A DNA stretch of 64,000 nucleotides from Echinarachnius parma. Its lineage: Eukaryota > Echinodermata > Echinoidea > Clypeasteroida > Echinarachniidae. The position numbers and the translations under genes were made by a program. This document shows positions 9,874 through 42,699 of this stretch, one piece after another; within the stretch, counting starts at the first letter, position 1; each line of letters begins with the position of its first letter. The DNA lies in assembly GCA_037951105.1 (NCBI GenBank), contig JBAMJV010011129.1:1-64000 (forward strand), written 5' to 3'. The notes below the pieces were generated by a model, which saw only the letters and a program-made list of their open reading frames with translations, searched no databases and had not been told where the DNA came from.

Positions 9874-12800
9874 GTAAGTTATGAATGAACAATACATTTA
9901 ATTTGAAGTAATAAATCGTGTCCGTCAGACTCGGCATCCGATCATGTCAATAACGATTTAAATAATAAACATTAAATTTTACACAACACAAAAACGCATG
10001 ACTTTTCCTTCATGAAGCATTATCATCAATATCATTATGTTTACATATACATTTTCATTGCTATTGAAATGGTGAATAAGTGAATGAATGGATGAATGAA
10101 TGAATGAATGAATAATAGAATATGCGACGATGCAATTTACAACGGTACAAGCACAATGATTAAAAGCGCAGTTACAACTTCGTCACAATATGTTGTTTTT
10201 CTGGGCCTCTTTACATTAATTGAACCATCATACATACACTGTCAGCCCCTTTGCATGACAGTTAACCCATTCAGGGCTGACTGATAATGATATTGGTATA
10301 ACATGCATTCTCCATAGACTCTGAAGCAGTCACTGATTTGGACTGCTATAGTTCAGAGATGTCTCTGTTACAATTCCTCTCTTATGTGCCAAGAATTTCT
10401 AGGGATTTGTATTGACCCGAGACTGCTTGCAGCCGGTTCTGCAAACCCTACGTTTAGGTAATAGATCGCGATAGTTTGTCGGTCTTTGACCCGTGTATTG
10501 TGTCGGACTTGACCCTGGGACCTAAAAACGGGTTTCCCGGAAGCGGGTCGAGTCCCGTAAACGCTTGTATATAGAGAGATACCGTGTGTGTCCGTCGGTG
10601 AATACCGAGGGAACACGCAGTTGACCAGCAAGCCGGAACGTGAACGGTTGTGTTTAGGAAAGTTGTCCGGAATTACATGTGCTTTTCTCCTGTGTGGAAC
10701 ACTATTATTTGCCTGTGTGGCCATAGTTATCGATAGGATATTAGTTTAGTAGACCTGTGTGGTCGTATTAGGTGCCTGTGTGGCGTTAAGTTGGATATTA
10801 GGTTAGATATTAGGTTAGGAACGAGGAAAGCTTGCGGTTTGCGAATGGGTTCGAGGCGACTCACGCCGGGGCTCGGTGCCGAGTGCCTTGCGTTGAGACC
10901 ATCGGGACGCCGGAGCTACCGGGCGGAGTCCAGGCAGTGAGACGATATAAGGTAGGCTATTATATATTCCGTGTGTGAATGATGCCTGACTGGGAGTTGA
11001 TAATTCGATATATAGTATGTTATTATTTCTATTAGAGTAACTAAAAATTACTTCAACTCTAACCTAACCAGGCGCCGTACGTAGTACGGCGCCTGGCATA
11101 CTGAGGTGTGTATACCGTGATGGTAACACTTTATAGGCTTTAACGGCAAACACACTTATAAAAAAAAGTTTTAAAAACACACAATATCATACTTTAAATA
11201 ACATATCTCGGTTCATACTTACGAATTATGTTATGCATGGACATCAATGATCCAAATCTGATGCTCCATTCGTTTCATTTATACTGAAATTTACTATAAA
11301 ACTGGCAAGATTACAGAAGTGACGAAAATGGTTTCCGAATTTGTTCGCTGCGTGCAATATCAGGTGATCAAAAACTTGTCGGCAATGCACCCCTGGCTTA
11401 TTGCCCCGCGCATGCGCTATGCATTGCCGACGAGTTTTCGGTCACCTGACATTGCATGCAGCGAACAAAGACGAAGGAAATAACAGTCATCATCATCATC
11501 ATCATCATCAATTTGAGGTAAGTTATCATTCTTTTGCAACAAATTAAATAGCAAGCAAGGTAGGTTGAAGGTTTAATTCTTGTCTAGAACTAAAAAAAAA
11601 AATAATAATAATCGATGTAAAGTTCTTGAAACCACCCGTCGCAAAATTTCTTCAAATTTGTTAACGTCTCGTCTTCACAGCGCCGGCGCTGATCACAGTT
11701 ACATAGACTCCTGCCCAAGCATATTCAGGACCAGTCTTGAACGGGTTAAGTTTTTTTTTAAAATACAGATGCCCGGAAAAGTTATATTAGTCTAGATCTT
11801 GAACTTGTATTATCCATATGCGAAACCCATGCATGGTATTGGAATTTGAGAAGTATAAGTCTTTTAGATCCTTATATCACAATTAAATTATTTGAATAAA
11901 TTCTATGCTGTTCTGTTCTGTTCTGCAGGAAAATGTAACGACTGCTCTACAGCGGCAGCCCAAATTGGGTCATTTGATGGGACGATTGTGCTCCTTACAA
12001 CACCTCTTGAGCCATGGTAAGTTGTAACTAAAGATCCTTTTTTTATTCCAAACAGTATACTGTACTATAAAAACAAAACAAAAGAGGAGTAGGATATGCA
12101 GTTTGGGGCTTTAATTATGAGCAAAAAAGTCTTCAAGAGTACTTTCTAAAAAGTATTTCTCCTTCCTCATGTAGACCTGTTCCGCATTGCAGTGGCATAG
12201 CGCCATAAAAAACGAGTGGAAAATACTTTACAAAATAAAGAAATGCATAAGAGTGTGCCCCCTAAAAATTCAGCATGAGATTTGTTTGTTGTTTAATTTT
12301 AATATATATTTATATATATATATATTTTTTTGAGAGTCCTCGGGATGAGATAGAGAGGAGATTGGGAAGGGGGGCGGGGGGGGGGGGGGGGGGGGGGGGG
12401 AGAGATGCCGACCTAGTTATACATTTCTTTTGTTTCATATTGTTATTTTGTCAAATATTTGCAATCTTACATACTGTAGATCCTGAGGTGTATGGCACTC
12501 TGCTGAGCTGTGTGCAGACTGCAGAGACTGCGCACTGAGAGACCACACAATGGGATGAATAGAAAGGAGCTAAGGTGGGGAGATCCCAAACTAGTTATAA
12601 ATATGTTTGGTTCTTATTGTTATTTGCCCAAATATTTGCAATTACACATTCATACAGATCCTGAGGTATACGGCACTCTGCTGAGCTGTGTGCAGACACT
12701 ACGTACTGAGATTCCACGGGATGGGATGCAAAAAAAGGCCAAGAACTGGGCAGAGGTAAGACTATAGTCCAGTCAAAATACGACAAAAAATGGGGTCAAC

Positions 12801-15800
12801 CCACGACTAATTGCAACAGAAACGATTCCACTTGTATTTGCTGTAGAATAGCCACTAAAACAACATACTAAAAGTTGACAAAAATTGAAGTGGTGGATAA
12901 GGGTCTAATTTGCATAAATTCAAAATGGCCGCCATACAGCCTTTTCAAGGCCATATCTCTGGATATGAAGCACTTAGAAAGTTAATTCTGGTGTCTACAC
13001 CCATGTTTTCAAGGTCAAGAAACACGATTGTAACCTAATTAGCAACATTCAGGCAACCCATCATACCTAATTTGCATAAAGTTGTAAATAATATATTCAA
13101 AATGGCCGCCATGTATCCTATATCAGCCTTTATCTCAGTATGAACCCAACAGAAAAATATTTATTGTATATAGAACTATGTTTCCAGGTTATGGAACAGA
13201 ATGTAAGTATATTTGCAACTTTTAAGCACCCCTTTATAGCTAATTTGCATATAAATATATTCAAAATGGCCGCCTTGTAGGACACTTAATCCCATATCTC
13301 AAGATATGAGACACATAAAAAGTAAATCTAAGTGTCTACACCCATGTTTTCAAGGTCAATGAACACAATTATAACCTAATTAGCAATATTCAGGCATCCC
13401 ATCATGCCTAATTTGCATAAAGTTGTAAATAATTTATTCAAAATGGCCGCCATGTATTCTATCTAAGCCTTTATCTCAGTATACAAACCCAACAGAAAGA
13501 TGTTTATTGTATATAAAACCATGTTTCTAGGTAATGGACCAGATTATAGTACATTTGCAACATTTAAGCACCCCCCCCCCCCCTTATAGCTAATTTGCAT
13601 ATATATATTTTTTTAAAGACAGCCATGTACGGCATATGTATATATCATTGGAAATAACACATGTTATTAATTCATTCTGTCGTTATTCTATATATATATT
13701 GTCAATGTCAAACACATGATTGTGGCCATTTCAAGCATATTAATCATGAATACCTAATTTGCATAAATTTTAATATACATAAAACTTAACAGACCTCCTT
13801 CCTAGCTCAGTCTGTATATTAAATATTCGTCGAAATAAATGTTTCACTTAACAGAATATTTAAGAATGTTTTCATTGTTGGCTAGAAATGCTGAAAAACC
13901 AATGATGATAACTCATTTGAAGCTAGTGTTAGTTCATAAATGGAATGACAGGAAAATGCATCACAGAGTGGAGCGGAGCATTTTACTGCAGTCTGCACAG
14001 GATCATCTGGAACAAAGGCCCATCATATAATGACATCTGCAAGCAATACGTCTTGTATGTGGAGAAACACTATGATAAGTCAACTGTGGTGTTTGATGGC
14101 TACATGAAGGGCCGGAGTACAAAATACGTCATCCACAGACGCTGAACTAGATTGCGCGTGTGTGTACCTGTACAAGTTTTCTGGTTCGATGGTATTCTAC
14201 GGGAAGTAGGAGGACTTTCTCTCCAACAGTAAAAACAAGCACAAGTTCATCATGCTGCTTGACGGACATCTAAGACACCTTGGGTGCCCTACAAAACATG
14301 ATCCAGGAGATGATGATCTATTCATTGTCCAGACTGCTATCACCATTGCTGAGGCCGAGGGTATACATATCCATACTGTTCTTGTTGCAGATGATATGGA
14401 ATGTCTGGTTCTCCTTTGTTACCATACCGAGACAACAATGCAGAACATGTTTCTTTGTCCGGAACCTCGGCACTGCATTAAGAAGGAGCAAAGATGTTCA
14501 GACATATCACTTCTGAAATCTGCACTGGGTCCACAAGTATGTAACAGTATTTTATGTATGCATGCTTTCCTTGGCTGTGACACGACATCCCATATTCATG
14601 GATTTTGGAAGGGAACAGCTCTAAAGCTTGTTCACACTAACAGGATCTTCCAGGAACAAGCAGAAGTCTTTGGAGATCAAAAGAGTACAAAGACTGATGT
14701 TGTATCAGCAGGACGGAACGCAATTGTTGGTCTATACAAAAGTTAGCCAGATGATAACCTGAAAATTCTCTGTCTTCAACGTTTTCATGAGAAGGTCAGC
14801 ACCTGTAGAGTACCACCTAGAGTGCAACTTACTTATGCAGCTGCTTCTTTTCATAGCCAGCATGTATTCTTGTCAATGCAGTAAAGGAAGGGAAATTAAA
14901 TCCAGCCATTGGCCTGGGGTTGGAGTGAGCGAGATGGAGAATTTAGTCCGATTCCTTCAGACAAAGCTCGCAGCTCCTAGGAATCTCCTGAAGCACCACA
15001 GTTGGCTTATCATAGTGTTTATCCACATAGGAGACATACTGCTTGCAGATGTCATCATAATTATGATGGACCTTTGTTCCAGATGATCCTGTGCAGACTG
15101 CAGTAATGCTCCCCTATCTGAGATGTATTGAATATACATAATATGCTCCTGGAGGCATGAAACGTCTCCAAAGTGTATCAGCCAGTTGAGATTTGTTTGC
15201 CAGTCGTGGTGTGAACTTGTTCTCCAGTCGTGGTGTGAACTTGTTCTCGAACAGTGCAGGAGGATAGCTACACAGCTCATAATCAAACGCATCTTAGAGT
15301 TGTCTTGGCGTGTTCCTTATGTTATGAGTCTATGAACAGTAGCTGATGATCGATTTGGATGGCTCCCTCTTTTGTTTGCACTGATGTGTTTTCACTCATA
15401 GTCAAGGCTTGATCTCTTCATTTGAATGTGTACTCTGTGATGCATTTTCCTGTCATTCCATTTATGAACTAACACTAGCTTCAAATGAGTTATCATCGTT
15501 GGTTTTTCAGCATTTCTAGCCAACAATGAAATGTAAAACATTCTTAAATATTCTGTTAAGTGAAACATTTATTTCGACAAATATTTAATATACAGACTGA
15601 GCTAGGAAGGAGTTCTGTTAAGTCTTATCTATATTCAAATTTATGCGAATTATGAATTCATGATTAATTTGCTTGAAATGGCCACAATCATGTGTTTGAC
15701 ATTGACAATATGTATATAGAATAACGACAGAACGAATTAATAACATGTGTTATTTCCAATGATATATACATATGCCGTACATGGCTGCCTTAAAAAATAC

Positions 15801-19624: not shown

Positions 19625-19703
<79 letters not shown>

Positions 19704-22700
19704 GTAAAATAATAATCTTAATAGGCCTATTGTGCACATCAATGTTGTCAATATTTGTAAATTGTTCATTTCAATTAACCAATTTATTATTTTTTGGTGA
19801 AGGTCTGATAATTTGTTTTTGTCAATAGAAAAACTTCTCTTCGCTAGAAAGATTAGTTTTTAAAAAGTGACATTGTGTTTTCCGACTTGCCTCCCATACA
19901 AATCTGGTAGAATGGAAAGGTCAATTCTGAAATCACATCATAATTTATTTTGTTTCAGTTGATCCTGTCAATACAGCAAGACCTAGAATACCTACTTGAA
20001 CAGCAAACCCAACTCTTGTTAGGGTAAGTATATGATTAATGAAAAGTAGTGACATCATATGGTATATGTAGTGCTTACATTATTTGTTTTTTTCCAATAT
20101 TAATATCACTTTGTTGTTATTCAGTCATTTACTTGCATTTATCTTTGTGTTTATTTAAACAAATATATATTTGATTTATTTATGATTATTTTCAATTGCA
20201 TTGATTTATTCTAAATCAGCATTGATTCTGGGAACAATTTGCTGGCAGAGGTATCTGAACTGTGTCTCCCTCTGCTTAGCAACGCTTCATCCAAGAGACT
20301 GCTAGAGTGTCTAATCCTTCTCAATGGACGCTCCTCTGATGGAGATAAAGTCTCGGACCTGTTTCTGGATAGAGTCACAGATTCACAGGCTTCTGCTTAC
20401 AGCCCTGATTGTAATAAAGGTGTGTCACTTAATGGTAACATGACTACATCAGTTATATAAGAATCAGAAACAAAACACTACATGTAACAGCATTGTGCAT
20501 GTTTGTGATACAATATGAGATTGCTGTAAGCGGTGATAGAGAGTCTAATCCTTCTCAATGGATGATCATCTTTCTGATCTACATGTACTTCTGGATAGAA
20601 TCGCAGGCTTGCCGGTTCCTGCATACAGCACACATTCCACTAAAGGTTTGTTACAACCGACAAGTAGCAAGTAGAGATGAATGATTGAATCATGATAACA
20701 TTATTGTTCAATAGATAATAATCAATTGGCAGAGCACTTACCAGCCAGTGTTTTCTCTCTAGAGTAAGATCTAATTAAGGTTTAGTAATTATTGGTACAT
20801 GGTTTATCTCAATATTTGGATATATCATATTACAGTGGAACCTCATTATAAGGAGCTCCTTGGGCCCATTGAATTTAAAATCTTATAACAGATATCTTGT
20901 TGTATCAGGGCTTAAAAATGATAACATACATAGTACCTGGACCTGTGAAATTACCTCGCTATATCAGGTACCTCATGACAGAGCTCATTATAAAGAGGTT
21001 CCACTATACCCACTATTTCATGTGAATTTTATGACCTTTTTTCAAAACTGTTTTGGTAGGAATCACTCAGGATCTTTAGTTTGAAGCCTAAAAGATAACG
21101 TTCACCCTCTTGTCACCTGTAGTTCTCAATTCTTTTCCTTTTATCTCATTATTACATCTAGAATCGTCGGATTGGAGCCTAGGATACGAAGCCCTTGTGT
21201 CGCTATGGTTACAGCATCTGCCTGCCTTGGAGCAAGAGATTCTGCTCCTCATCAGAGCTTATACACAACATCTCCATCATCACGGCAGGAGGACTGCCTT
21301 GGAGGTTATCCGTTCAAGAGAACTGGTAAGAATAGCAATTTAAAGGATACATTTTGATTTTTTACTTGAAATTAACTTTCTATTCTCCTAAACATTTTCC
21401 TTCTAGACTTTGATATTTATTTCGTCTTTTTAAAGGGACAGGTCCTCTTTTACAAAACGTCTGAACAGCTTTCAGTTGACGGATGGGGATCAATGTAACA
21501 CGCAAAAAAAAAATCAGAGCGAACAGCCCTCTAATTTGGATTCTACGAATGAAAAATGAATGCGTCCCTCCATTTAAACTATATATCGGTCAATAAAGGA
21601 GTTCAACTGATTTAGCATAATATTACAACAATATAGTACTAATTCTCGTAAAGGTATTGTGAAGCCGACATTTGTTAACGTATGTCACGGAAAAAGATCT
21701 CAAAAAGAAAGAATATATAATTACATGTAGTCAGTTTAAGTGATGTTTGGGTATTTTGCTTGGTAAACGCTCACACATTAGTACTTATGCGCGGGTCACG
21801 TAGGGGTCATGCATACCGATCTGGCACTCTGTGAAATCTATGTACGAACTTACTCACCGGCCGAAAATACGTATGTACCTAATTAACCGACGTCCCTCAG
21901 TTTATTCAGTTTTAGGTCTATAACTCCACGAAAAAGAGATTTCAAGCCCTAATTTTTTCAGGCATGCTATTAAATGACATTTCCTTTCATATAAGACAAT
22001 AACCTCGCAACTTTTGAATTTTGGCTTGCAAAAGTGGATCTCTCCCTTTAAATAGGGCGGCCCCATCCTAATAGAGTAAACAAGGGGCAAAACAGGTTTC
22101 CATAGACAATCCTGTTCAAGACTATTTCATTTTTGCAATACCATGCATCCTACATGGACCGCAGCCTGAGTATAATCGGGACCAGTCCTGAACGGGATAA
22201 CATTTTATTTGTACTTTTTAACAAAGAATTATTAACCGTAATCAAAACTAAATTACCAGCATAACTAATTTACCGGTATATTTGACCTAGAAAAATGAAA
22301 CCCAACATAATATCCCGACTATCCAGTGTTATAAAAGTGTTATGAAATTCCTTATTTCTCTAGCCCAGGGCATGTGCTGAGCATACAGTACTCTATAAAG
22401 CTGTAGACTTGTGCATCCAGCAGGTTCTATGGGAAAGAAGAGGCTGTCAACATGTTGTGAGATTCATGCACCTGTTCCAAGTGGCTGTTAATGAGGCTAT
22501 CCTTCAAATTCCATCACCACAGATACAGGTACAGTGTTACATAGAGATGGACAATTTTGATTACAAAATAAATACAATTCTCCTATAGTTCAATGGTTCC
22601 CTTAGCAAATAGAGACACATTTATGTGTAAAAACATCAAATGTTTTATATTTTTATTTCAAAGACAGAATTTTGTCTACACTTTTTTATGCCTCCGCAAC

Positions 22701-25700
22701 GAAGTAGCTGGAGGCATTATGTTTTCGGGTTGTCCGTCCGTACGTACGTCCCGTTCTCGTGATCGCGTTATCTCAAGAACCAATTGACGGATTTTCACCA
22801 AACTTGGGTCATGTATGTATCTTGGGGAGCCAATGAACTGATTAGATTTTGGGGTCATGAGGTCAAAGGTCACATAGCTCATTATATATGCAAAAATAGC
22901 TCGTGATTGCGTTATCTCAAGAACGGATTGACGGATTCTGACCAAACTTGGTACATGTATGTATCTTGGGGAGCCAATGAAGTGATTAGATTTTGGGGTC
23001 ATGAGGTCAAAGGTCAAATGTCACAGAGCTCATTATATATGCAAAAATAGCTCGTGATCGCGTTATCTCAAGAACGGATTGACGGATTCTGACCAAACTT
23101 GGTACATGTATGTATCTTGGGGAGCCAATGATCTGATTAGATTTTGGGGTCATGAGGTCAAAGGTCACAGAGCTCATTATATATGCAAAAATAGCTCGTG
23201 ATCGCGTTATCTCAAGAACGGATTGACGGATTCTGACCAAACTTGGTAGATGTATGTATCTTGGGGAGCCAATGATCTGATAAGATTTTGGGGTCATGAG
23301 GTCAAAGGTCACACAGCTCATTATACATGCAAAAATAGATTGCTTGTGATAGACTCAAGAATTAGTCGGTGGATTCAGACCAAACTTAGTACATGTATGA
23401 ATCTTAAAGAGCCGATGAACTGATTACATTTAGCGGTCATGAGGTCAAAAGTCACAGGGCTCATTAAAAAAAGATTGTAATTGGAAATCTCAAGAACTGA
23501 ATGTCAGATTTCAATCCAACTTGGTACCTGAATGTATCTTAAGGAGCATTTATTAGATTTTGGGGTCAAAGGTCAAGGTCACAGGACTCATTTTGTAAAA
23601 ATAACTCAAGAAATCGCGCCATGACGGAGGCATCATTTTCGACTGCGCGCAGTCGAAGATCCATCTAGTTTTTATATGTCTTTGTTTTTAGTTTTAGTAT
23701 CTTTCCAGACACTAAACAGGGCTGTTCCTTAGCAGTGGCCTGGGTGCCAATTATGGCCACCAGAAATGTAATTTGGCCACCAAAGAATTAGGATCAAGTG
23801 TATGGTGGGGGTCTATCTGATGTGTCAATTTGGCCACCTGAAAGAAAAGCTTGAAGGTGCACCTGTAAAGTGTCAGATATTGCCCAAAATTACATTTGAG
23901 ACTTCAATCCTATACCAAAATCATTGTAAGATATGTCCGAATGATGTGTGAAAGTTTCATTGAAAAATAACGCTGCTTTCCTGGTTAAAAAAGCGAAAAT
24001 TTGCGTCAGCTTTTACAACAAATTACTGTATAACGTGTATGACCGTTCATTAACGATCTTGAGCTGAATAATTATCAATGATAGATGTCGTCGTACTAAA
24101 GGGGCATTTTAAAAAATCTAACCCTATTTTATTCTTCTCTTACCATTTAAGCTAAACAACACGGTAGAAGAGAAATGTGGAAGCTCCAAGTAATTTTCGT
24201 GGAGTTAGACACTTTACTGGTTTCACTTTAAGGGAGAGTCCTGATTAATGATTTGCTTTACACATTGTATTAACCGATGTAACATCATATCGTATCTGTT
24301 CTTAGGTTACGGTGCATGCTCTCTTCCCACAAACGCTTGGTCCTCTGGTTAATCTGCTCTCAGTAGATCCTAAAGGTAAGCTTTCCAGTCAGTTCATTTT
24401 CCTCATGTAAATTAAATCCAAATGAGGATATTCTAAATGCTTGATGCACCTACAAGGCTGCTCGGGATATGCCAGGGTAATGATATAATCCATATAGCAC
24501 AATGCGCCTTGGAATAGAAGTCCTAGAATTATGGTGCAATATAATGCTGGATTATCAGTATAATCGTATAAAATACACAATTTTGTGTATGAGATTTCAG
24601 ATCCATGGGATCCATCAGTCGGCTCCAAGCCTTTTCGTTCAGTGAGGTTATCTTCCCATCTTTTCCTTTGTCTGCCTCTTTTTCTCCCTCCTTTTTACTG
24701 TACTGTATAGAACTGTATTTGCAAGTCCTGAGGATCTTGAAACGTGGCCTAACAACCGGGGTAATAATATCATCGTAAAGTGCTTAGAGATGATGATCAT
24801 TCATATTGGGTTGCTATATCATATTTAGTAAATTGAGTATACTATATTATTTGTATTTATTTATTACAAGTTTTGTTGTCTCAGCTTTCTGTACTGTACC
24901 ATGTAGAACTGTCTTGACAAGTCTTGAGGATCTTGAAACATGGCCTGACCCTTACATTATTAAAAATGTTGTTAGTTCATCTTCTGTTTTACTGTGCAGT
25001 TCTTCCAAGGGAAGCTCAAGCCTAACCGGTACATTATTACAAATTTACAAATTTTGATAATTCATCTTCTCTGTTTTTCTGTGCAGTTCTTCCAAAAGAG
25101 GCTCAAGCCATTCACCTCCCCAGCATCCACTCCACATTGTTGACTTCCCTGGAGGATGCCGTCGTTGCCAACAACCCACGGGAGATGTTCGCCGTCTGGA
25201 CCGTCCTTGTCAAGTTCCAGTCTTGGTATTATGCAGCCATCTCTGTGCTGGTCAGGGGTAGCTTTGTTGGGCAGTGCAATATAGGAGGAGTAGAAGGAGC
25301 TTGCCTGGGCCTTGTTACGTGGTTCAACTGGCCCATGGCTCACACTATGAAGAACAATGCTAAGGTTTGTTAAATAAAATTTATTTTATAAATTAAAAAA
25401 TGAACAAAGAAAATGAACTTAGCAAAATGTAAGATTTGTTGGACAGAGCAATGTAAGAGGAGCTTGTCTTGGCCTCTTTGCATGGTTCAACTGGTCCATG
25501 TCCCACTCTATGAAGAACAATGCTTAGGTTTGTTTAAACAAATAATGATTTTTAGCACCAACAAAAAATGAACACAAATACTTGGTAGTATGCATACGTT
25601 ATCAGACTCTAATGAAAGTGTTTCCTTGAAGTGTGATCTACAATTCAATTGTTTTGGTATCATGTGAATCTACCTAAAATGAAGGTTAACTTAGGAATAT

Positions 25701-26644
25701 GTTTTGTTTTTTCATGGGTGTATTCAAAATACTACTTTTTGTAAAATTTCCTCTGCTCTGAGTATACCCTTGAATATACATTTTTGTATTTATCTGATAT
25801 TTTTTGTTTGTTAATGTTATTAAATACAGGAGCTCATACAAGATATTGCCGAGACTCTGCACAGTTGCATGATGGGAAGTGTGTTCAAGTCTGCTGAACT
25901 CAAGAGGGCTCTGTCCATGTATCTTGCTGCGTTGTCTGAAACCGAGAGGAAAGGTGATTTTGTTGGTGTCTGCACAGCACTCATGATGTCAGCGTTGTAT
26001 CAGTCACCCTGTGTGTCGCCGGATAATGTGATGGAGATCCTGGATCTACTGGTAAGACAATTATTAAGGTGGTCTCCCACAAAGAGACCAAAAGCTTGCC
26101 ACAAGGCACGACTAAGATTGTATGAGACTAGCTGCAACAGTCTTGTGTGAGCATCCAACATTTTGAACATGTTCCCTCATAGCCCTCATAAGAGAGGGAC
26201 AGTGGTGATTTCTATTTAAATATATGAGAAGGCGTGTAGAAAAGCAATTACTACTTTTTTATGAAATGACCGAATATGTATTATGCCGTAATAAAAACAT
26301 ATAAAATGTTGGTTAATACAAATATTTCTGATAATATTAACAAATCAATCTTATTAATCAATATTTTTGTATTGTGTTAAACATAGCTTACTTCAGTGGG
26401 AGACTCTAACAGCATATACCACAAGCTTATCTTTCTGCTGGACTACACAGACCTCCTGCAAGCCGCACTCCCGGATGAGGTGTCGGGAGTGGGATTTCAC
26501 TCTGGCATTCCTGCACACATAAAACAAGCCGTTAGGAATCTTGTCGAGACATTGGACAAAGATGTAGCAGAGGGCAGGACTATTATGCCTGGTAAATCTG
26601 AAATAGAGGTGCTTCGCACAAGATGTAAGGATATAACTCGTTGA
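9712..26644 (+). CDS. FANCC: Fanconi anaemia group C protein (FANCC), 12 exons
   Basis: FANCC belongs to the C-E-F module of the Fanconi anaemia core complex, the nuclear ubiquitin ligase that monoubiquitinates FANCD2/FANCI at DNA interstrand crosslinks. Exons: 9712-9873, 11929-12016, 12658-12755, 17845-17955, 19959-20023, 20220-20419, 21162-21325, 22364-22528, 24306-24375, 25087-25364, 25830-26051, 26387-26644. They sum to 1881 nt (626 residues plus stop) with GT/AG junctions and unbroken phase; human FANCC is 558 residues. Residues recalled from vertebrate FANCC line up along the chain: an FW near residue 17 followed by an HV..LQ.FL block, a W-to-GF/GY spacing of 28 residues in exons 3-4, LWL.HLP.LE in exon 7 and FP.T..P...L..DP in exon 9. 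The protein is alpha-helical with no signal peptide or membrane segment. The ATG at 9712 has A at -3 and G at +4; an in-frame ATG at 9652 would add 20 residues in weaker context. The last exon is the least certain in homology. Confidence 0.92.
10095..10123. repeat. (GAAT)n microsatellite in FANCC intron 1
   Basis: About six GAAT units. Confidence 0.8.
10366..11128. mobile_element. GC-richer insertion, possible solo LTR
   Basis: A 763 bp block in intron 1 begins TGTTAC and ends GTAACA. It is richer in GC than its surroundings and has TATATAGAGAG about 200 bp in. LTRs commonly have TG...CA ends of this sort. I do not see a convincing target duplication, so the call is tentative. A 13 bp perfect hairpin (11068-11080 with 11084-11096, loop GTA) lies inside near the 3' end. 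Confidence 0.3.
11340..11469. repeat. 130 bp foldback repeat in FANCC intron 1
   Basis: Arms of about 50 bp starting TTTGTTCGCTGC and ending GCAGCGAACAAA, near-perfect inverted copies around a spacer of about 35 bp. MITE-like. Confidence 0.8.
11929..12016 (+). CDS. FANCC: FANCC exon 2
   Basis: 88 nt between TTCTGCAG and GTAAGTT, phase 0 in, 1 out. Encodes PKLGHLMGRLC, matching the TIGQLLAKAC-like helix of vertebrate FANCC. The acceptor follows a TTCTG repeat tract. Confidence 0.88.
12372..12402. repeat. poly(G) tract
   Basis: About 30 consecutive G on the + strand of FANCC intron 2. Confidence 0.9.
12412..12590 (+). pseudogene. decayed tandem copy of FANCC exon 3
   Basis: A 178 bp unit duplicates the segment carrying exon 3 (the unit recurs at 12590-12760). 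The copy keeps an AG acceptor (12478-12479) and the first codons. A TGA then follows in the FANCC frame about 60 nt in, and the donor has become a weak AAG|GTGGGG. It is either a dead exon or a cryptic poison exon. Confidence 0.85.
12658..12755 (+). CDS. FANCC: FANCC exon 3
   Basis: 98 nt between CATACAG and GTAAGAC, phase 1 in, 0 out. Encodes YGTLLSCVQTLRTEIP. The donor lies 9 bp before a large transposon-like element. Confidence 0.88.
13970..14746 (+). pseudogene. transposon-associated PIN-like nuclease family protein, C-terminal part, broken
   Basis: Successive + strand frames read YVLYVEKHYDKSTVVFDGY, then EDFLSNSKNKHKFIMLLDG, then a long open stretch (14252-14746) with HDPGDDDLFIVQTA, TVLVADDMECLVLL and HAFLGCDTTSHIHGFWKG. 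I recognise the pattern (VVFDGY / D-D-LIVQTA / HAF-GCDTTS) from uncharacterised multi-copy proteins of invertebrate and fish genomes, with acidic residues spaced as in PIN/FEN-type nucleases. A stop after the VIHRR segment and frame changes break the chain, and a stop ends it at 14746. Family naming is from memory. The nuclease function is inference. Confidence 0.6.
14994..15433 (-). pseudogene. same element protein, N-terminal part, on the opposite arm
   Basis: Reading the - strand gives AIQIDHQLLF, then in a shifted frame YELCSYPPALFENKFTPRL (with an adjacent duplicate of the last eight residues), LADTLWRRFMPPGAYY and a segment that duplicates the start of the + strand core (DICKQYVSYVDKHYDKPT). 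At least one frameshift and one stop are present. The two halves of one gene therefore lie in opposite orientation in the two arms. Confidence 0.55.
16119..16549. mobile_element. TTAA-flanked MITE, family A (nested in the long-inverted-repeat element)
   Basis: 431 bp, ends AGGGTACCACC ... GGTGGTCCCCT, with TTAA on both sides. The left arm of the host element gives the empty site (GATTAAGTGTC in the same orientation). A second copy, inverted, is at 44671-45089. Confidence 0.88.
17440..17815. repeat. dispersed repeat family B
   Basis: Ends near TCCATTAACTTCAT and AAGTTAATGGATCACT in inverted orientation, with internal AATGATGTGTGAAAGTTTCAT. Related copies: 23880-24235, 40930-41725 (interrupted), 48640-49170, 57600-58050. 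This copy ends about 30 bp before the exon 4 acceptor. Confidence 0.65.
17845..17955 (+). CDS. FANCC: FANCC exon 4
   Basis: 111 nt between CATATTCAG and GTATGTT, phase 0/0. Encodes AEVAESVGFTALEYNTLSTD. The start at 17845, not the AG six bases later, gives the spacing found in human FANCC. Confidence 0.85.
18110..19590. other. FANCC intron 4 interior, no gene seen
   Basis: AT-rich sequence without open frames of note. The edges (TGTCGTGGTACG near 18100 and CATTCCCACA near 19598) could bound an inserted retroelement, but I cannot show it. Confidence 0.4.
19603..19703. repeat. (GAT)n microsatellite
   Basis: About 28 GAT triplets after an interrupted GAT-rich stretch. The poly-Ser and poly-His reading frames here are artefacts. 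A second GAT-rich tract is near 17975-18070. Confidence 0.95.
19959..20023 (+). CDS. FANCC: FANCC exon 5
   Basis: 65 nt between TGTTTCAG and GTAAGTA, phase 0 in, 2 out. Encodes LILSIQQDLEYLLEQQTQLL. Confidence 0.87.
20220..20419 (+). CDS. FANCC: FANCC exon 6
   Basis: 200 nt between CTAAATCAG and GTGTGTC, phase 2 in, 1 out. Encodes ELCLPLLSNA and LLECLILLNGRSSDG, matching the VCVPLITLTD / LVEALLICHGR region of vertebrate FANCC. Confidence 0.86.
20535..20655 (+). pseudogene. decayed tandem copy of FANCC exon 6 (3' part)
   Basis: TCTAATCCTTCTCAATGGA and the following 100 bp repeat the exon 6 sequence 234 bp downstream, including AAAG|GTTTGT at the donor position. Small deletions and substitutions break the frame. 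Confidence 0.8.
20836..21010. mobile_element. pogo/Tc1-like MITE
   Basis: Ends CAGTGGAACCTC ... GAGGTTCCACT, TA nearby on both sides. The same family is at 27767-28236. This copy is uninterrupted. Confidence 0.7.
21162..21325 (+). CDS. FANCC: FANCC exon 7
   Basis: 164 nt between ACATCTAG and GTAAGAA, phase 1 in, 0 out. Encodes ALVSLWLQHLPALEQEILLL, the clearest match to vertebrate FANCC. Confidence 0.92.
21434..22047. mobile_element. TTAA-flanked MITE, family D
   Basis: 614 bp flanked by TTAA, left end AGGGACAGGTCC and right end ATCTCTCCCT. Related to 62402-63022. Both contain ACTCCACGAAAAAGAGATTT. Confidence 0.82.
22364..22528 (+). CDS. FANCC: FANCC exon 8
   Basis: 165 nt between TTTCTCTAG and GTACAGT, phase 0/0. 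Encodes RACAEHTVLYKAVDLC and VRFMHLFQVAVNEAI, aligning with the ACHPAIFRVVDEMF / VFTQCFVEAL region of human FANCC. Confidence 0.88.
22686..23672. repeat. minisatellite-bearing element with DR1 motifs, FANCC intron 8
   Basis: Begins with TGCCTCCG...GGAGGCATTATG and ends near GACGGAGGCATCAT. Inside are about five to six imperfect units of roughly 150 bp (ATCGCGTTATCTCAAGAACG ... GGGGAGCCAATGA ... CATGAGGTCAAAGGTCAC). The hexamer pair AGGTCAAAGGTCA is perfect at 22860-22872, 23004-23016, 23154-23166 and 23299-23311, and degenerate further on. Confidence 0.9.
23880..24235. repeat. dispersed repeat family B
   Basis: Shares GAGACTTCAATCCTATACCA, AATGATGTGTGAAAGTTTCAT and GGAAGCTCCAAGTAATTTT with the other copies. 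Confidence 0.6.
24306..24375 (+). CDS. FANCC: FANCC exon 9
   Basis: 70 nt between TGTTCTTAG and GTAAGCT, phase 0 in, 1 out. Encodes HALFPQTLGPLVNLLSVDPK, aligning with the FPYTSPSLAMVLLQDP segment of human FANCC. Confidence 0.88.
24700..24960. repeat. local duplication and possible SINE tail in intron 9
   Basis: CTGTACTGTA...AGAACTGT...TTGAGGATCTTGAAAC occurs twice (about 24698-24750 and 24890-24945). The intervening TAAAGTGCTTAGAGATGATG resembles SINE 3' tails of marine invertebrates. Confidence 0.45.
24975..25035 (+). pseudogene. duplicate acceptor and first ~25 nt of FANCC exon 10
   Basis: TTCATCTTCTGTTTTACTGTGCAG plus TTCTTCCAAGGGAAGCTCA repeats the true exon 10 start 78 bp upstream. 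In the FANCC frame this copy hits TAA after eight codons. The acceptor and pyrimidine tract look functional. Confidence 0.85.
25087..25364 (+). CDS. FANCC: FANCC exon 10
   Basis: 278 nt between TTCTGTGCAG and GTTTGTT, phase 1 in, 0 out. Encodes STLLTSLEDAVVANNPREMF, FQSWYYAAISVLV and GLVTWFNWPMAH. Confidence 0.88.
25432..25545 (+). pseudogene. decayed tandem copy of FANCC exon 10 (3' end)
   Basis: Repeats the last ~105 nt of exon 10 plus the donor (ATGCTTAG|GTTTGT). It has deletions, and TAG replaces the last AAG codon. Confidence 0.85.
25830..26051 (+). CDS. FANCC: FANCC exon 11
   Basis: 222 nt between TAAATACAG and GTAAGAC, phase 0/0. Encodes FKSAELKRALSMYLAALSE and CTALMMSALYQSPCVSPD. 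Confidence 0.86.
26387..26644 (+). CDS. FANCC: FANCC exon 12 (terminal)
   Basis: 258 nt from AACATAG to the TGA at 26642-26644, phase 0 in. Encodes KLIFLLDYTDLLQAALPD, HIKQAVRNLVETLDKD and a short basic end. The 3' end could shift if CCTG|GTAAAT (26588-26595) is used as a donor. Confidence 0.72.
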   Translation, partial: LTSVGDSNSIYHKLIFLLDYTDLLQAALPDEVSGVGFHSGIPAHIKQAVRNLVETLDKDVAEGRTIMPGKSEIEVLRTRCKDITR

Positions 26645-26649
26645 TTCTC

Positions 26650-26970
26650 AGAACCAAGTCACGCACCACATGAGGTGTCAGGAGTGGGATTTGACTGTGA
26701 TGGGATGTTCCCTCACATGTGAAAAGCCATTAAACATCTTGTAGAGACATCAGACAAAGATGTAGTAGAGGGCCGGTTGATTACACATTGGGAACCTGCT
26801 TCACACAAGATGTAATGATACAACTCGTTGATACTAAGAAGCAAGCCACACTACCACATGAGGTGTCGGGAGTGGGATTTGTCTGTGGCATTCCCTCACG
26901 TGACGAGCCTCATGCAGAGGGCAGGTTGATTTAACACGTACACCTCTTCTCCAGGTGTTTCACACAAGAT
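26650..26970 (+). pseudogene. two decayed tandem copies of FANCC exon 12
   Basis: Units beginning near 26650 and 26830 each repeat GAGGTGTCGGGAGTGGGATTT (with changes), the GTAGAGACATCAGACAAAGA type segment and CACAAGATGTAATGATACAAC. Both carry frameshifts and deletions. The second is shorter. Confidence 0.85.
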
Positions 26971-27055
26971 GTAATGTTCTTTCTCATTGAAAACAGATAG
27001 ATCATTTTGCCTCCGGCAGAAAGTTTAGGCCCTCTATTGATTTGTTTTGTTTTAA

Positions 27056-28264: not shown

Positions 28265-28565
28265 TAGGGACAAAATATATTCCTTAATTGCAACGTATTT
28301 TGTAACAATTTCTCTGTAAAGTTTATGTCAAGGCAGGATTTGAACATTACTGGAAAAAAAAGCTTTGATTTGTCAAATGTCTCCTATTAACAAATATATT
28401 CCTTTTTATGGCAAGGGGGGATTTGAACATTACTGGAATAAAAAGCTTTGATTTGTCAAATGTTTCCTATTAACAAATATATTCCTTAATTGCAATGTAT
28501 TTTGTAACAATTTCTCTGTAAAGTTTATGTCAAGGGGGGATTTGCACATTACTGGAAAAAAAAAG
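28265..28565. repeat. local tandem duplication, ~120 bp units
   Basis: AAGGGGGGATTTGAACATTA, TTGATTTGTCAAATGT and TTAATTGCAATGTATTTTGT each recur two or three times. Confidence 0.85.
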
Positions 28566-29142: not shown

Positions 29143-29282
29143 ATTCCCATAGACTTATAGTACACAGTACACCAGGTTCCTGTAGGCAATGGGTCAACAC
29201 ACGTATCACTCTATTCCCATAGACTTATAGTACACAGTACACCAGGTTCCTGTAGGCAATGGGTCAACACACGTATCACTCT
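29143..29282. repeat. perfect 70 bp tandem duplication
   Basis: 29143-29212 and 29213-29282 are identical (ATTCCCATAGACTTATAG ... ACGTATCACTCT). Lack of divergence suggests a recent event. Confidence 0.95.
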
Positions 29283-29289
29283 ATTCGGT

Positions 29290-33590: not shown

Positions 33591-34571
33591 TTGACACACC
33601 TAGATTTCTAAGGATAGAAAGAATTTCTCCCAACCATATATGAAAATGTACCCCCCTAAAATATTGTAAGCTATTCTAATTTCATTACCAAGGTATAAAG
33701 GGCTTCTGAATTCTGTTGTGACAACTTTGGTATGCAGCAATATCACAGGAGGAAAAAAATGGGGAAAGTGAATACAAAGTTCTGTGTCGGCTAGATTTTG
33801 AATACAATCAAACCTGCTTTAATGGCCATCTGTGTATAAGGACCACCTGCCTGTAAAGGCTTAGCTCAATTCTCTGATAGGCAATTTGCATGTAAAGTAA
33901 TCAATTTCCTATGATTAACTGCAGGCCCATTAATCCAATTCAAATAACTTATGGACTGGAAAAATTAAATCAAACAATGCTTTGAATAATTTGACTACAG
34001 TGTCTTTTCTAATTAAATGCCAACTGACCGATTTGCATGGGTTCTACGAACCCAATTCAAACTTCCTAGCCATGAAGACCCTTTATGATCAATATGATCG
34101 ACTGTATTCTATTTCAGGAAAATATGTATAAGATTAAAAGCGCATATGCTTTGGTATCTAATGATTTAATATTATAATACAAAATACAAAGCGGAAAGAT
34201 TGTCAAGAATCAATATTAAAAGGTTAAATATACTTGAAATTGATTGAATTCTTACACATATTACGGGACCAGAGACTATACTCTTGGATGATTAATGACA
34301 AGAAACACTAATATTTCAGTTCCATTCACTGCAGCTGAAAGTTGCGCCAAGATAAGCAGAACTAACTAACATTCACATAAACAAATGCAACAGGGTCTCA
34401 AGGTAATGATAAATCAAACTTCCTATTATTCCCACCTTGAAGTCAATTAAATGGTGCTTCCCTTACCAGTGTAACTCTGTTACCGGTGTAATTCCGTTAC
34501 CAATGTTTTCATAGGAATGGGTTAAGATATTAATGAATTGGGTGTTTGGGGTTGTAAGGACACAGATTTAA

Positions 34572-34942
34572 AGGGACTTAGTAACTTGTCCAAATCCTCA
34601 AAATAAAATTTTAATTCTAGCGGTTCCCTCATACCTTGTTGTATTCGTATTAACAATAAAATCATGGGACCGGTTTTTCAAATTTCCCTTTCGTTACAAA
34701 GATATGTACGATTGAAGTATTCAGATAAGAAAAACTCAGGTGGAGTTTTGAAACCGTGTACAAAGTGAGTGCAGTGAGTTAGTGAATATCACTTTGCATT
34801 TTCGCTCATTACTTGGCCATGCAATGTCCATTTGACTTGAAATTTTCACACAATACCCTGTGGACATATGAGATAACAATAATATACATTGCATCAACCC
34901 TTCATCACTTTTTGCACATGTCAACAAAGTTACTAGATCCCT
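34572..34942. mobile_element. TTAA-flanked MITE, family C, copy 1
   Basis: 371 bp, ends AGGGACTTAGTAAC ... GTTACTAGATCCCT with TTAA on both sides. Other copies at 42218-42595 and 52079-52466. The open frame shared by the copies is not evidence of coding. Confidence 0.92.
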
Positions 34943-34946
34943 TTAA

Positions 34947-36531: not shown

Positions 36532-36758
36532 TCAGCAGGCAGAGACTTCAAGGTTTTCAGAGTCCCAGTTGACCTCTGACGAGTCAGATTCTTTCTTCTG
36601 CCGAGCCTCCCCGTCTGAGGGAGACGGACCGTCGTTCAGGTCATCGTTGCTATGGTAACAGCTGTCCTCCTCTTGGTTGTCCGTGGAGACTGGTTCCTCA
36701 GACGATGGCTTGTCGTCTGATCCCTTGCTGGCAGCTTCGTTGTCATCGGTCTCCAGTT
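36532..36758 (-). CDS. SYDE: SYDE last coding exon
   Basis: 227 nt from acceptor CATACAG to TGA (36534-36532), phase 1 in. Acidic, Ser-rich tail with no known domain. Confidence 0.85.
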
Positions 36759-39700
36759 CTGTATGAAAATATCAGATAAATTAAATATATTATGTACAGT
36801 GTTATTAACTTATAATGTTATAACTTGGAATGTTATGAATATTTTTGCGAGAACTAATGTAAAGCTAGAAATTGACAAGTTTCCTTGTGATTAATTTAGA
36901 CTCCAGAAAACTAATGAAACCATTGGCATAAATCGTATGGGCAACTCCAGCGTCACGGACATTACAAACAGACAGTATTTTCATGACTTTCCAATGCCAC
37001 TACTAATTCATACCTCTATCTAATGTCTAGCTTTTATTTTGATTACAAAGCAATAGCCTGGTTAAGTATGCAAAAAAAGTTTCAGAACATTTATCCAATT
37101 CGTTACTGAGTAATTCTGCAAAATGTGCGCCGTCACGGACATTACATTTTTTGGACATGACTTTTTGCATCCATATACATCTTTGCAAAAATCTGTGAGT
37201 TCTGAGACCTCACAAAGGTGATTTAGGTATTCAATTATAGACAAGGCAATGATGAATTGAATCCAAGTTGGATTTTGCGAAACGGGCCAGGTATATGTGA
37301 TCTAGACAACAAAATGTTGCGTCACGGACATTACATTTTTCAGCGTCACGGACATTACAGTTTGTCCAGAGGATTTGATTCATTAAAAAATATACTTTAG
37401 AGCACTCAAAAGACTGAAATTTTAATCTGAAAAGGTAATTTAATTATCAGTCATCAAATTTGGTGCCTTAAATAATAAAAATACCAGAAAATTTGGAAAA
37501 TATAAGGATTTTCCTGAAATTTGCACAGGGTAATCCCATGTGTGGAGTTTCATGTATGGTTTCCGTTTCTCCTATAAGGAGACACCCGAGAATTAAAAAA
37601 ATCATGTGAACTGAAAGATATAATCATAGGATCATGTTGTATGGAAAAATAATCCAGAAAAAATCAATAGGATTTGAAATAGAGCCAATTGTTTTTTTGA
37701 GTTCATGTCCACTTTTTCGTGGAATTGCCCGTATGCAAAATATTTTCTTAAGGGTAGGGGGAGTTAATGAATAACCAATCCCAACTATAATAAAAGATTT
37801 ATAAACAGACCCACACCCATGCATAAAGACTGCACATCTTGTTGGGTCACTACATTAGTCCTGTCCATGATCTGGCATGGTAGTTAACGGCTTTGAGGTC
37901 ACCTTGGGAAATGACTCTGGCAAGTCTGGGTACTGACTAGCAGTTGTTTCCTACATGTAAATCGAGGTCATTCAAATTGAGTCAACCAAAACCTACCTCT
38001 TCTGACTGGCCACACTTCAAGAAGACATGATAAGAGCTCTATGTGCTTCTCTGCGCAGTCCACCGACTTCTCTCTCGCGTCGCCCCTCGCGTCCGGTTTC
38101 ACGTCGGGGGGCCCACGCGAGCCCCGGACACCGCGGCCACCACCGTCCTCCTTCCCCGAGCTCATGAGGACCGGACCAAAGCAGACGGCCAGGTTGTAGG
38201 GTGTCATCTTGTTGGAGTCGCAGTGGATGATGACGTTCTTGAGATGGTCCAGGATGTATTCCACAGTTTCCTGCTATGATTAAACACAAGGACAGGGTGG
38301 TATTTAGAGATTGATATTGAAATGAGGAGGCGTTAAGAGGTTTTTATCAAAAATAAGCTTGAAAAGAAGCCCCTGAAAAAAACATTTAATATTTTCACTA
38401 TACAGGGTGGCCCATAAATAACGGAACGGGGCACTTGTCAAAATAAAGCAACGAAATAGCTGGGTCCATCGGATAGTGTGTCTTTTCAAATGAAAATTGA
38501 TACCAAGAACATTAATTTTGGTCCTGTAGTTTTTGTTTTAGAGCGCTGTGAGTGACACCATGTCAGGGTTCATTTTTCTTCAATTTTGACTGACCTATTG
38601 GCTAAAGAATGATCCGAACGGCGCAACATAGAATTACGGTGCTCTAGCTATTCAGTCGATTGCACATTAACAAAGGTGTCCGCATCATTGTTTACCGTAA
38701 TTCTATGACGAGCCGTTAGGGTCATTCTTTAGCCAATAGGTCAGTCAAAATTGAACAAAAATGAACCCTGACATGGTGTCACTCACAGCGCTCTAAAAAA
38801 AAAACTACACGACCAAAATTAATGTTCTTGGTATCAATTTTTATTTGAAAAGACACACTATCCAATGGACCCAGTCATTCCGTTACTTTATTTTGGGAAG
38901 TGCCCCGTTCCGTTATTTCTGGGCCACCCTGTATAAACAATATCTATTGATGATGACCAGTGAAGGTGGAAAGTAACTTGTCATCTTGTTTTAGTCGCTG
39001 TGGATCATGCCATTCTTGAGCGGGTCCATAATGTACTCTACTGTTTCCTGCTTTGATCAAACACAAAGACAGGGTGGTATTTAGAGATAAATATTTAATC
39101 TAGGTTTTTTTTTAGATAACACTAATAATTCTTCTTTAATATTTATGATAAGAACACTAAGCTGTTTTTATGCATGCAAGTTGTTGCCCAAGTTACACAG
39201 AACAAATCATTGTCAATCTTGACTCACTCTGAACTCAGAAGCATGTAAGCCATCGCTACCAGGATGGAGCATCCGGATCGTACGATATTATTTGCAAGAG
39301 CCTCAATATCACTGTAAACTACAAATAAATCAAACTACAAACAGGGTGCTACATAACTTTTTATTTTTCAAGCCATGACACTACCCAATATGGGCAAGTA
39401 TATTTCTGAACATTTTTAAAACCCCTTGTAGATTATTAAAATATGAAATTTCTATGTACTTTCCTATATTTTGCTTGTTATATTCAGAAAACTACTTTTC
39501 TTGTCTTCCGAAAATACTGTCCTGTATCTGGCTCATCCTTTCCCAGGACAATCTGTCAAGTGCCTATTATATCAAATGTAGTATTACACTGCTGTAAGAA
39601 AGACCAAAACTCACTTTATTTGGCCCACATTGGTCGATGACATTGACGGCGTCATCACCATTGCACACAGGATCATCGGGTGAGGAATGAGTGAGTGTAG

Positions 39701-42699
39701 ATAGCACCTTCTCCATCATACTGGGGGGCATCAGAGGCTCCGGTAACTCCCGCAGATAGTCCTTTAGCACCCCTGCACAAGAAATCAAGGAATATTATTG
39801 TCATCATCATCATTATCATCGTTGATCACATTATCATCATAAAAAACTCATATAATGATCAGTATTCACTGATGTTAAACAGAATATCGAGTGCCCTTTT
39901 CTATCATACTCCGGGACATGAGGGGCTCGGTATCTCCCGGAGATAGTCCTTTAGCAACCTTGCAGAAGGAATCAAGGAATTACATAATCATCATTGATCA
40001 TATTATCATCATAAAACACTCATATAAAACAAACAATATTTACTGATCAATGTTAAACAAATATCGAGTGCCCTTTTCTATCATACTCAGGGGCATGAGG
40101 AGCTCCGGTAACTCCAGAAGATAGTCCTTTAGCACCCCTGCAGAAGGCATCGAGGAATATTTTTGTCATCATTATCATTATTACCATTATTGTTGTCATA
40201 ACCATTATCATTGCATTTTTATCCTGGAATAACAAAGAATATTCATTCATGATGAACCAGTGAACATGGATAGCACCTATTCCCCCTTACTGGGGATACC
40301 AGGGGGTCTTGTAAGCTTGCGAAGATGGTCCTGTAATGCCCCTGCAGAGCGAATCAAATCATTATCATTATCATAATCAATATCAAAATATTATTATAAT
40401 TAACAAAACAAATACAAGTATATAATAATCAATGATTATTAACACGTTCCCGCACATCACAACCAAATTAAAATGACAGAAATATCAGCAAGTTGATTGT
40501 GGTAACTATATAGGGAAGAAGAAGAATTATTAATAACCATTGAGCAATCTTTTCCATCATACTAGGGGGCATGAAGTCTTTTAGCACCCTACAGGGGGAA
40601 TGAAGGACATTCATCATCACCACCACAACCACAAACGTTCTTGTCATGTGTAAGAAGAAAAAAAAGTGGATGGGTGAATATATCAGTAACAATTTCATAA
40701 AAATCATATTTCTAAAATGTTCATACAATAAGAATTTAAGCATATATCTTCACTATTAATACATACTGTATCTTGATGTCACCATACTATTAAGCCATTT
40801 ATAAACAAATGTTCAAACACAAAACCCATACTTCATGTAAGAGTCATGACATAAATGAAAACAATTCAAGTAAACATCTACACACACAGTATTTTAAGTT
40901 TACAATAAATTTTTTCATTATTTTCAAAGAAAAATCTGTAAGCTATCAAAGTGATCCAACAACTTCATGAGATTTTCCAAAAGTGTTTAATGAAGAATTA
41001 AATCATACTCCAATATCATCGTAAGATTCTTCTGAATGATGCTTGAAAGTTATGCTGTAAGTGACCTTGATGATCTGATTGTTAATCCGATAGGCAAACT
41101 TTGATTTATGATCGAAATCGGATAAAAAATTATTCTTCATTCGATGTCAATATTTAGTGTGATTTACTATGATTAAATGTTTTACTCTGTATCAATAATA
41201 TCATAACATATTTCAATTTGTGTTATCTGTAAAGATAATGTTGCATTATTGATAAAGAAAATAAATACTATTCTCGACAAGGCAAAATCTGCATTTTGTT
41301 TTAAATGCTCAGATGAAGAAAGACAAATCCTGATCTTTTTGATTTTTCTCCATGATCTGAAATCGGCAGAAATATGTCGATTAAATGCCGATCCGATGAT
41401 CAGTTACAGCATTATTTGAAAGTTTTGTAGGAAAAGAAATGAAAGAATGCAGTTCACCAAGTGAAAAGTGAAATTTCATGTTAGATTGGATCACCTACTG
41501 CCCATTAATTTTAACTACATGTACAGTATGTCCAATTAAACAGCATTCTGGAACACTTCTCATTCAATCATAAATATCTCCATAATTAGGGAGATATTTG
41601 AAGAAAAAAAATATACCAAAACATTTGATTCTTAAAAGCCACATAACAAGGTACAAGAGAACTGTGAAAGCTCCAAGTGATTTTGGTTGAATTTGACTAA
41701 GTCAATGGATCACTAACGTAATCAGCGAAAAAAATACACCGGGGAGGCGGGCGAATTCGCCCCCATTTGGATCGTGATCAAATGCTTATTAGATGACCAC
41801 TTACAGCATTAGAGCTTAATAGTAGCCCCTGAAATTCAAACAAGAGCCCAGAAATTGGTAGTCCCCGAGATGATAAAAGTAGCCCCCAAAAGTTGGAAAA
41901 GTAGCCCCCGAAAAGGAGCCCCCGAAATAAAAATATTAATTTTTTCGCTGACCGTAATTATAAACATGCAGCGTAGATGCATATTGATTTGAATTTTGTC
42001 TGTTTTAATATTTTATATATATTTAGTTTCCATAATTTATAACTTGCCACCAATGTTTAACAAATATGTTATGTAAATACATAGGGACAAGGACTATATT
42101 TACTTTTGATATATCATTGAGTTTTTTTCAATTCAATTTTATGGATATTGTTTTGCCACTAACATTACGTTATTTCATACAATAGAGAAACATGATCAAT
42201 ACATGATTTAACCTTAAAGGGACTTAGTAACATTGTCCAAATCCTCAAAATAGAATTATAATTCTAGTGGTTCCCTTATACCTTGTTGTATTCGTATTGA
42301 CAATAAAATCACAGGACAGGTTTCGTTTTTTCAAATTTCCCTTTCGTTACAAAGATATGTATGATTGAAGTATTCAGATAAGAAAAACTCTGGGCGAGTT
42401 TTTCTTCTGTGTACAAAGTGAGTGCAGTGAGTTACTGAATATCACTTTGCATTTTCGCTCATTACTTGGCCATACAATGTCCATTTGACTTGAAATTTTC
42501 ACACAATACCCTGTGGACATATGAGATAACAACAATATACATTGCATCAACCATTCATCACTTTTTGCACATGTCAACAAAGTTACTAGATCCCTTTAAT
42601 GCAGCTTAAAGAAGTGTGTAGAGTACATGTACAGTGTATGTGTATCCATGGCACAATGCCAGACATGCAATGTTGAACTACTGTATCCAGTGGCATAGC

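Follow-up and report, generated by a model that had tools for sequence, protein, structure and literature searches.

Introduction

Why should exon after exon, in two unrelated and convergent genes, lie beside a broken copy of itself? The question is raised by a stretch of 64,000 nucleotides from the echinoid Echinarachnius parma (contig JBAMJV010011129.1, C11107 in our numbering, of the 1.2-Gb, 14,790-contig assembly GCA_037951105.1), hereafter called the window. It contains a FANCC-like gene on the plus strand and a SYDE gene on the minus strand. An earlier note on this DNA had claimed at least eleven partial copies of exons next to their sources, and all eleven were recovered by self-alignment of the window and by aligning each exon with its region. 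We call these copies exon ghosts. The reading that we prefer, with a probability of about 70%, is that this genome undergoes tandem duplication on the scale of a nucleosome throughout its length, and that exons are the best-preserved witnesses of the process.

The SYDE gene is well supported in the profile search (C2_SYDE at 69.6 bits, together with RhoGAP). The FANCC-like gene is weak in Pfam, where its two co-ordered Fanconi_C matches score 20.8 and 16.1 bits and the cut-off is 25, and a PDB search with the frame of its exon 10 gave no relevant match. Exon borders in the window were set by eye and are accurate to a base or two.

Results

Ghosts in other genes and other regions

Forty-three exons were tested for local copies: 12 from FANCC and 5 from SYDE, which make up the 17 of the window, and 26 from CCT and RhoGAP genes, at loci picked, before any duplication had been seen in them, either for their compact CCT genes or because they form contig pairs. 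Two further loci, L029 and L030, had been chosen for a previously seen pair and are not among the 43. Each exon was compared with its own 700-bp flanks, the threshold being the maximum reached by 258 decoys, 28.3 bits. A direct copy above all decoys was found within 700 bp of 15 of the 43 exons; the best inverted score in an exon's own flanks was 21.1 bits, with none above the threshold. One further SYDE ghost has been carried beyond the 700-bp range by an inserted palindrome. Outside the window a copy adjoins 10 of the 26 exons, one match being marginal (L027, 3915-4019, 32.6 bits, 29 bases), and in the CCT gene of locus L031 there is a ghost at four of the six listed exons. The ghosts are thus not confined to FANCC and SYDE, which the earlier note proposed to compare with other genes.

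A profile search with four Pfam families (RhoGAP listed at E <= 0.001, the other three at E <= 10) yielded, among 393 hits scored, at least 23 same-strand local pairs and no opposite-strand pair. Twenty of them join an exon to a ghost, on 18 exons, two of which represent the contig pair of one gene; the total includes two ghost-ghost pairs, a doubtful pair spaced 568 bp apart and one duplicate from a contig pair. These counts are lower bounds, with 109 of 109, 87 of 107, 65 of 273 and 122 of 312 candidates scored. Similar pairs were seen by eye in the HECT family, which was left out of the counts, its list being incomplete and containing multi-copy genes.

The same asymmetry was observed in 18 further regions (L005-L022); L005 and L006 continue the contig of the window, and the remaining 16 lie on evenly numbered contigs. 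At a strict threshold there are 39 direct and 9 inverted clusters in these regions, 38 and 5 in the window and gene loci, and 77 and 14 in total; the inverted clusters serve as a control that keeps the real sequence, palindromic self-matches not being counted. First-order Markov resampling, in one run of 167,575 bases, gave no local direct clusters against 39 in the real sequence. At a low threshold, a direct local copy accompanies 79 of 400 noncoding pieces from the window and gene loci; for L005-L022 the figure is 96 of 500. Exons are unannotated in those regions, so that "without known exon" there does not amount to proof of exon-free DNA. It is very probable that the tendency to short tandem duplication, suspected earlier for the region or the genome, is genome-wide, as borne out by the CCT and RhoGAP loci and the four profile families; that it is unusually frequent is a judgement from one genome.

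Size of the duplicated unit

The 38 single steps between exons and ghosts have a median of 194 bp and a mean of 196 bp, and 35 of them fall between 147 and 240 bp. All were gathered manually, 22 of them in DNA alignments and the remaining 16 in profile pairs. The set omits three profile pairs that had entered it as DNA, the 568-bp pair and the SYDE steps of ~242 bp (insertion removed) and ~245 bp (fourth ghost); the compound spacings of 335 and 360 were entered as their component steps. Spacings of 120-260 bp characterize 51 of the 77 direct clusters versus one of the 14 inverted ones. The upper limit is not an effect of detection, since steps of up to ~700 bp would show. Moreover, 29 unique duplications without a known exon have a median of 193 bp, and their location does not differ from that of the exon steps (Mann-Whitney p = 0.79). 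The satellite array at positions 1-8846 of the window is built of units of 194-195 bp, matching the peak. The range of 70-250 bp given in the earlier note thus holds in that the duplications are short, but the distribution is not broad and peaks near 194 bp. The unit is probably of nucleosome scale.

Geometry and origin of the copies

The copies are direct, lie close to their source and combine intron with a single end of an exon. Mostly, an upstream ghost has the acceptor side and ends inside the exon, and a downstream ghost begins inside the exon and has the donor side; departures from this are found in L023 and L032, which have mid-exon pieces, and in L030, whose ghosts end short of the exon end. 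Among the 20 exon-ghost profile pairs, nine upstream ghosts share the exon start, six downstream ghosts share the exon end, five share neither, and none has the contrary arrangement. The one-sided exon content therefore points to direct tandem duplication in which one breakpoint fell within the exon. This is seen most clearly in the RhoGAP gene of L029, where positions 760-950 are repeated at 951-1141, a unit of 191 bp running from intron into exon, with no gap and at 87% identity. The intron was duplicated along with the exon in L031 also. Retrocopying, which would leave an intron-free copy of several exons, is ruled out by the copying of intron with one exon end at these two loci. Where junctions could be read, they overlap by 11, 5, -1, 21, 1, 0, -6 and -25 bases; the gaps (-6 and -25) belong to older duplications, and most pairs are too decayed for contiguity to be judged.

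Ghosts in the FANCC-like gene

Exon 3 of the FANCC-like gene (approximately 12658..12755, plus strand like all features of this gene) is intact, with an open frame and AG/GT borders. Upstream of it, at 12481..12567, lies a ghost of its acceptor side only (step 178, 78% identity); self-alignment places the duplicated unit, intron included, at 12396-12567 and 12574-12738. Between exons 3 and 4 there is also an element (12894-16946) composed of two long inverted arms of internal direct repeats with broken reading frames between them. Exon 6 (20220..20419) is followed at 20534..20645 by a ghost of its 3' part and donor side (step 234, 68%, four stops). Exon 10 (25088..25364), which matches positions 363-418 of the Fanconi_C profile at the 16.1 bits mentioned above, below the cut-off, has a ghost on either side. 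The one at 24952..25022 copies the end of intron 9 and the start of the exon (step ~86, 82% over 73 columns) and scores 66.8 bits against a null maximum of 26.8; the one at 25432..25527 copies the exon end and donor side (step 172, 76%). Finally, exon 12 (26388..26644), the last coding exon, has two ghosts in series, at 26670..26831 (step 195, 71%, three stops) and at 26841..26990 (step 188 from the first, in two pieces of 85% and 69%).

Ghosts in the SYDE gene and a later insertion

On the minus strand, the SYDE exon at 39613..39772, identified by the RhoGAP profile, is the source of four ghosts. They lie at 39895..39959 (acceptor side, step 188, 83%), 40072..40137 (step 177, 86%), 40250..40335 (step ~178, 70%) and 40549..40607. 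The fourth is internally deleted, with two pieces that match at 92% of 24 and 76% of 34 positions, and is the weakest of the eleven: its 31.1 bits exceed the null maximum of 26.8, and its 25.4 bits on its own do not. Most of the window ghosts reach E values of 1e-9 or better in self-alignment. Several ghost clusters adjoin long tri- or hexanucleotide runs (CAC/CAT, GAT), at window positions 39800-40400, in L030 at 837-1276 and in L031 at 3240-3850 of the gene strand; simple repeats might therefore have some part in the duplications.

The last RhoGAP exon of SYDE (37996..38270, minus strand, found by profile search) has a ghost of exon positions 1-69, acceptor side, at 38979..39047 on the same strand (81%), and self-alignment gives the unit as 38202-38321 and 38979-39098 at 84%. 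An insertion of ~533 bp resembling a miniature inverted-repeat transposable element occupies 38401..38933. It is a palindrome, without assigned strand, with an inverted self-match of 87% over 544 columns and 12-bp ends. The original spacing of the pair was ~242-244 bp and is now 777 bp because this later insertion split the unit; its position inside the duplicated unit provides a relative date.

Decay of the copies and comparison of haplotypes

Across 22 ghost alignments, codon position 1 is mismatched at 88 of 625 sites, position 2 at 72 of 629 and position 3 at 144 of 629, which corresponds to 14.1, 11.4 and 22.9%. A stop is present in 11 of the 22 alignments and a frameshifting insertion or deletion in 10. 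The ghosts decay near-neutrally, since little change would be expected at the first two codon positions of a protected pair; the surplus at position 3 is consistent with synonymous change in the source exon. Overall, the copies are 5-32% diverged and contain insertions and deletions.

Contig pairs of one gene were taken as haplotypes, and the same ghosts occur on both members of L023/L024 (steps 160 and 189), L025/L026 (step 216) and C8560/C8152 (steps 208 and 192). Three contig pairs were aligned over 8,431, 9,931 and 8,170 bases (26.5 kb), with divergences of 2.3, 0.34 and 3.4%; the members differ in length by 20 bp or more at 25 places, and there are many large insertions. Many haplotype pairs, among them C6105/C8375, C2129/C3401, C1854/C99 and C8560/C8152, seem to have remained separate in the assembly.

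Overrepresentation of exons

Exons have a direct copy more often than noncoding pieces do (15 of 43 versus 79 of 400, odds ratio 2.2, p = 0.03), about 1.8 times as often or more. Local coverage would lead one to expect 4.9 exons with a copy where 15 are observed. In a permutation test that covered 38 of the 43 exons, 15 were overlapped by a duplication versus 7.4 expected (p = 0.005); for the window only, the figures are 6 of 17 versus 3.64 (p = 0.14). Both the permutation and the local-coverage tests include the SYDE ghost beyond the 700-bp range of the flank test, and their entropy filter drops one L031 ghost that the flank test keeps. For young copies, those of at least 85% whole-alignment identity, the numbers are small: 2 of 38 exons against 1.03 expected (p = 0.28). 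Within positions 8901-48000 of the window, none of the 17 exons is overlapped by a duplication that reaches this identity. The earlier statement that most local duplications carry exons is thus true for the older, diverged class only.

A survivorship simulation with a neutral ghost, a constrained source and assumed parameters indicates that exon-overlapping duplications would be detectable 1.42 times longer than noncoding ones. Survivorship would accordingly explain part of the exon excess, and the loss of intronic sources by deletion, which lay outside the simulation, would explain more of it. The true ratio of exons to noncoding pieces may exceed the odds ratio given above, because inverted copies reveal repeat noise in the noncoding pieces. 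The earlier suggestion that exons are simply the copies that stay recognisable is supported by the simulated ratio and by the commonness of copies without a known exon, but as simulated it does not reach the whole of the exon excess.

Other repeats in the window

Duplications with and without exons both occur, as the note had argued from a perfect 70-bp copy, which was recovered at 29143..29286 (100%, 2.1 copies). Other duplications that contain no known exon are found, likewise on the plus strand, between exons 9 and 10 of the FANCC-like gene at 24679..24949 (step 194, 78%), at 28273..28563 (young, steps 202 and 83, 95.5%, the latter an 83-bp unit) and, outside the part of the window at 9,874-42,699, at 60472..60786 (step 193, 90%). 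The satellite at 1-8846 has a higher-order structure, with identity of up to 100% between units that lie ten monomers (~1946 bp) from each other, for instance 1790-2089 and 3736-4035. Young tandem arrays with 97-98% matches lie at 55245-55967 (55 bp x 13) and 56907-57341 (48 bp x 9), and a 144-bp tandem repeat of about five copies at 22756-23618 forms part of a larger element-like stretch. Dispersed repeats include the pair 21430-22063 and 62398-63039 (79% over 654 columns) and the set 34568-34946, 42214-42599 and 52075-52470 (89-93%).

Discussion

The preferred explanation would work as follows. A frequent germline mutation would add, in place, a direct copy of a single ~194-bp unit, about the length of a nucleosome repeat. 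Where a breakpoint falls inside an exon, an intact exon and an adjoining partial one would result, the upstream ghost having an acceptor and no donor, and the downstream ghost a donor and no acceptor. Such a piece, deprived of one splice site, should be ignored by exon definition; it then decays near-neutrally, and repeated duplication would produce serial ghosts. As the simulation suggests, exons would be overrepresented at least partly because the constrained source cannot be lost, so that old copies stay recognisable. More tentatively, chromatin may be the ruler of a dominant germline mutation, whereby DNA is re-copied per nucleosome repeat (~194 bp) often enough to leave ghosts at about one third of conserved exons, lengthening introns and seeding nucleosome-length satellites. 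The molecular step could involve opposite-strand nicks or breaks in neighbouring linkers followed by fill-in and end joining, or the re-synthesis of one Okazaki-fragment length; in either form we regard it as doubtful.

Several observations weigh against the explanation by genome-wide, nucleosome-scale duplication. Too few junctions are readable to favour either end joining or slippage. For duplication in the present day there is little proof: the three aligned contig pairs contain one copy-number difference, a 149-bp tandem unit in L023 versus L024, in which gain and loss are inseparable because the copies are 8% diverged, and of the two other flagged differences one is a simple-repeat run of 30 bp and the other, of 33 bp, lies at the edge of a locus. 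At the low threshold, inverted copies accompany 38 of 400 noncoding pieces in the window and gene loci and 72 of 500 in L005-L022, where they come close to the 96 of 500 with direct copies. Since they are so frequent, part of the noncoding local-copy signal reflects the structure of repeat elements, and outside genes the duplication background falls short of the exon signal. The simulated survivorship of 1.42 also falls short of the exon excess, whether expressed as an odds ratio or by local coverage. In addition, the duplications without a known exon are more broadly distributed in size, with 15 of 29 between 147 and 240 bp (Levene p = 0.0015), and repeat elements contaminate this set. Finally, the link to the nucleosome is drawn from the length of the unit.

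Could the ghosts be products of the assembly, through false joins or haplotype stitching? The apparently uncollapsed haplotypes do provide a setting for false duplications. However, paired haplotype contigs share the same ghosts and the copies are diverged and carry indels, which makes misassembly very unlikely; moreover, in SYDE the later palindrome sits within one duplicated unit. Functional, mutually exclusive exons would also leave copies beside their sources: alternative exons are known to originate from tandem exon duplication, and half of the ghost alignments (11 of 22) lack an in-frame stop. This reading is just as improbable, given that the copies are partial and mostly lack one splice side, that frameshifts affect nearly half of them (10 of 22), and that the codon bias is weak, positions 1 and 2 having changed substantially when compared with position 3. 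Internal repeats of transposable elements could underlie some of the local duplications: the inverted-arm element in the FANCC-like gene has such repeats, and 20 of 56 clusters from L005-L022 and the window have relatives elsewhere in the sample. As the general account they are scarcely tenable: the exon-bearing units are gene sequence, inverted clusters have no size peak, and the other 36 clusters lack a relative in the sample, itself a small fraction of the genome.

Two further possibilities concern the process itself. Exons might truly be hit more often, owing to positioned nucleosomes, R-loops or splicing. An excess above simulated survivorship, by either measure, is what this would produce, and the net excess may be even larger, as inverted copies occur in noncoding pieces and none above the threshold beside exons. 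Nevertheless, exon-directed duplication appears rather improbable, because young duplications are not significantly enriched in exons and the median step is no different where no known exon is involved, and the loss of intronic sources would probably raise the survivorship ratio above the simulated value. Alternatively, the ghosts might record the ordinary background of tandem duplication found in all genomes, visible only because exons preserve it; short insertions in other genomes are indeed often tandem duplications (PMC2374710, PMC2654908). We hold this to be unlikely in view of the share of tested exons with a copy, about one third, and of the sharp size peak near 194 bp, the rate being that of one genome.

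Exon ghosts record tandem duplication cleanly: they have a constrained source, a known frame and breakpoints within gene sequence. A 194-bp ruler, if it holds, would tie a major class of genome growth to chromatin or to lagging-strand replication, which would help to account for the lengthening of introns, the start of nucleosome-length satellites and the supply of raw material for new exons and introns. For gene predictors and exon-level homology searches the ghosts are a caution, partial extra exons being frequent in such genomes.

Tandem duplication and exon duplication are already known; what appears new is the frequency and the ~194-bp size, of which no description was found in the literature searched, a set of top-ranked open-licence papers that makes this weak evidence. 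In plants, tandem duplications reportedly arise after adjacent single-strand breaks, with the spacing of the nicks setting the size of the unit. They resemble the present ones as direct local duplications without transposition, and suggest a candidate mechanism, but they were induced by paired nicks, whereas those described here are natural and lie near 194 bp. Mutually exclusive exon copies are usually whole, spliced and conserved, in contrast to the partial, one-sided and decayed ghosts. The likeness is that in tandem exon duplication, too, copies adjoin their source (PMC5740500). The nucleosome-length satellite of the window likewise consists of direct tandem copies of the same length, but it is a long, near-identical array, whereas the ghost events are isolated and amount to between one and four extra copies. 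In human and fly, insertions by tandem duplication are mostly of a few bases, in contrast to units of ~194 bp. There too, direct adjacent copying is a source of short insertions (PMC2374710, PMC2654908). A close precedent in form is a potato gene that gained an intron via a tandem duplication crossing an intron-exon border (PMC4974935): it was a direct duplication that copied an intron end and an exon start, as here, but in a single gene where the duplicate became a new intron, whereas in E. parma the copy decays, many genes are affected and the unit is nearly constant.

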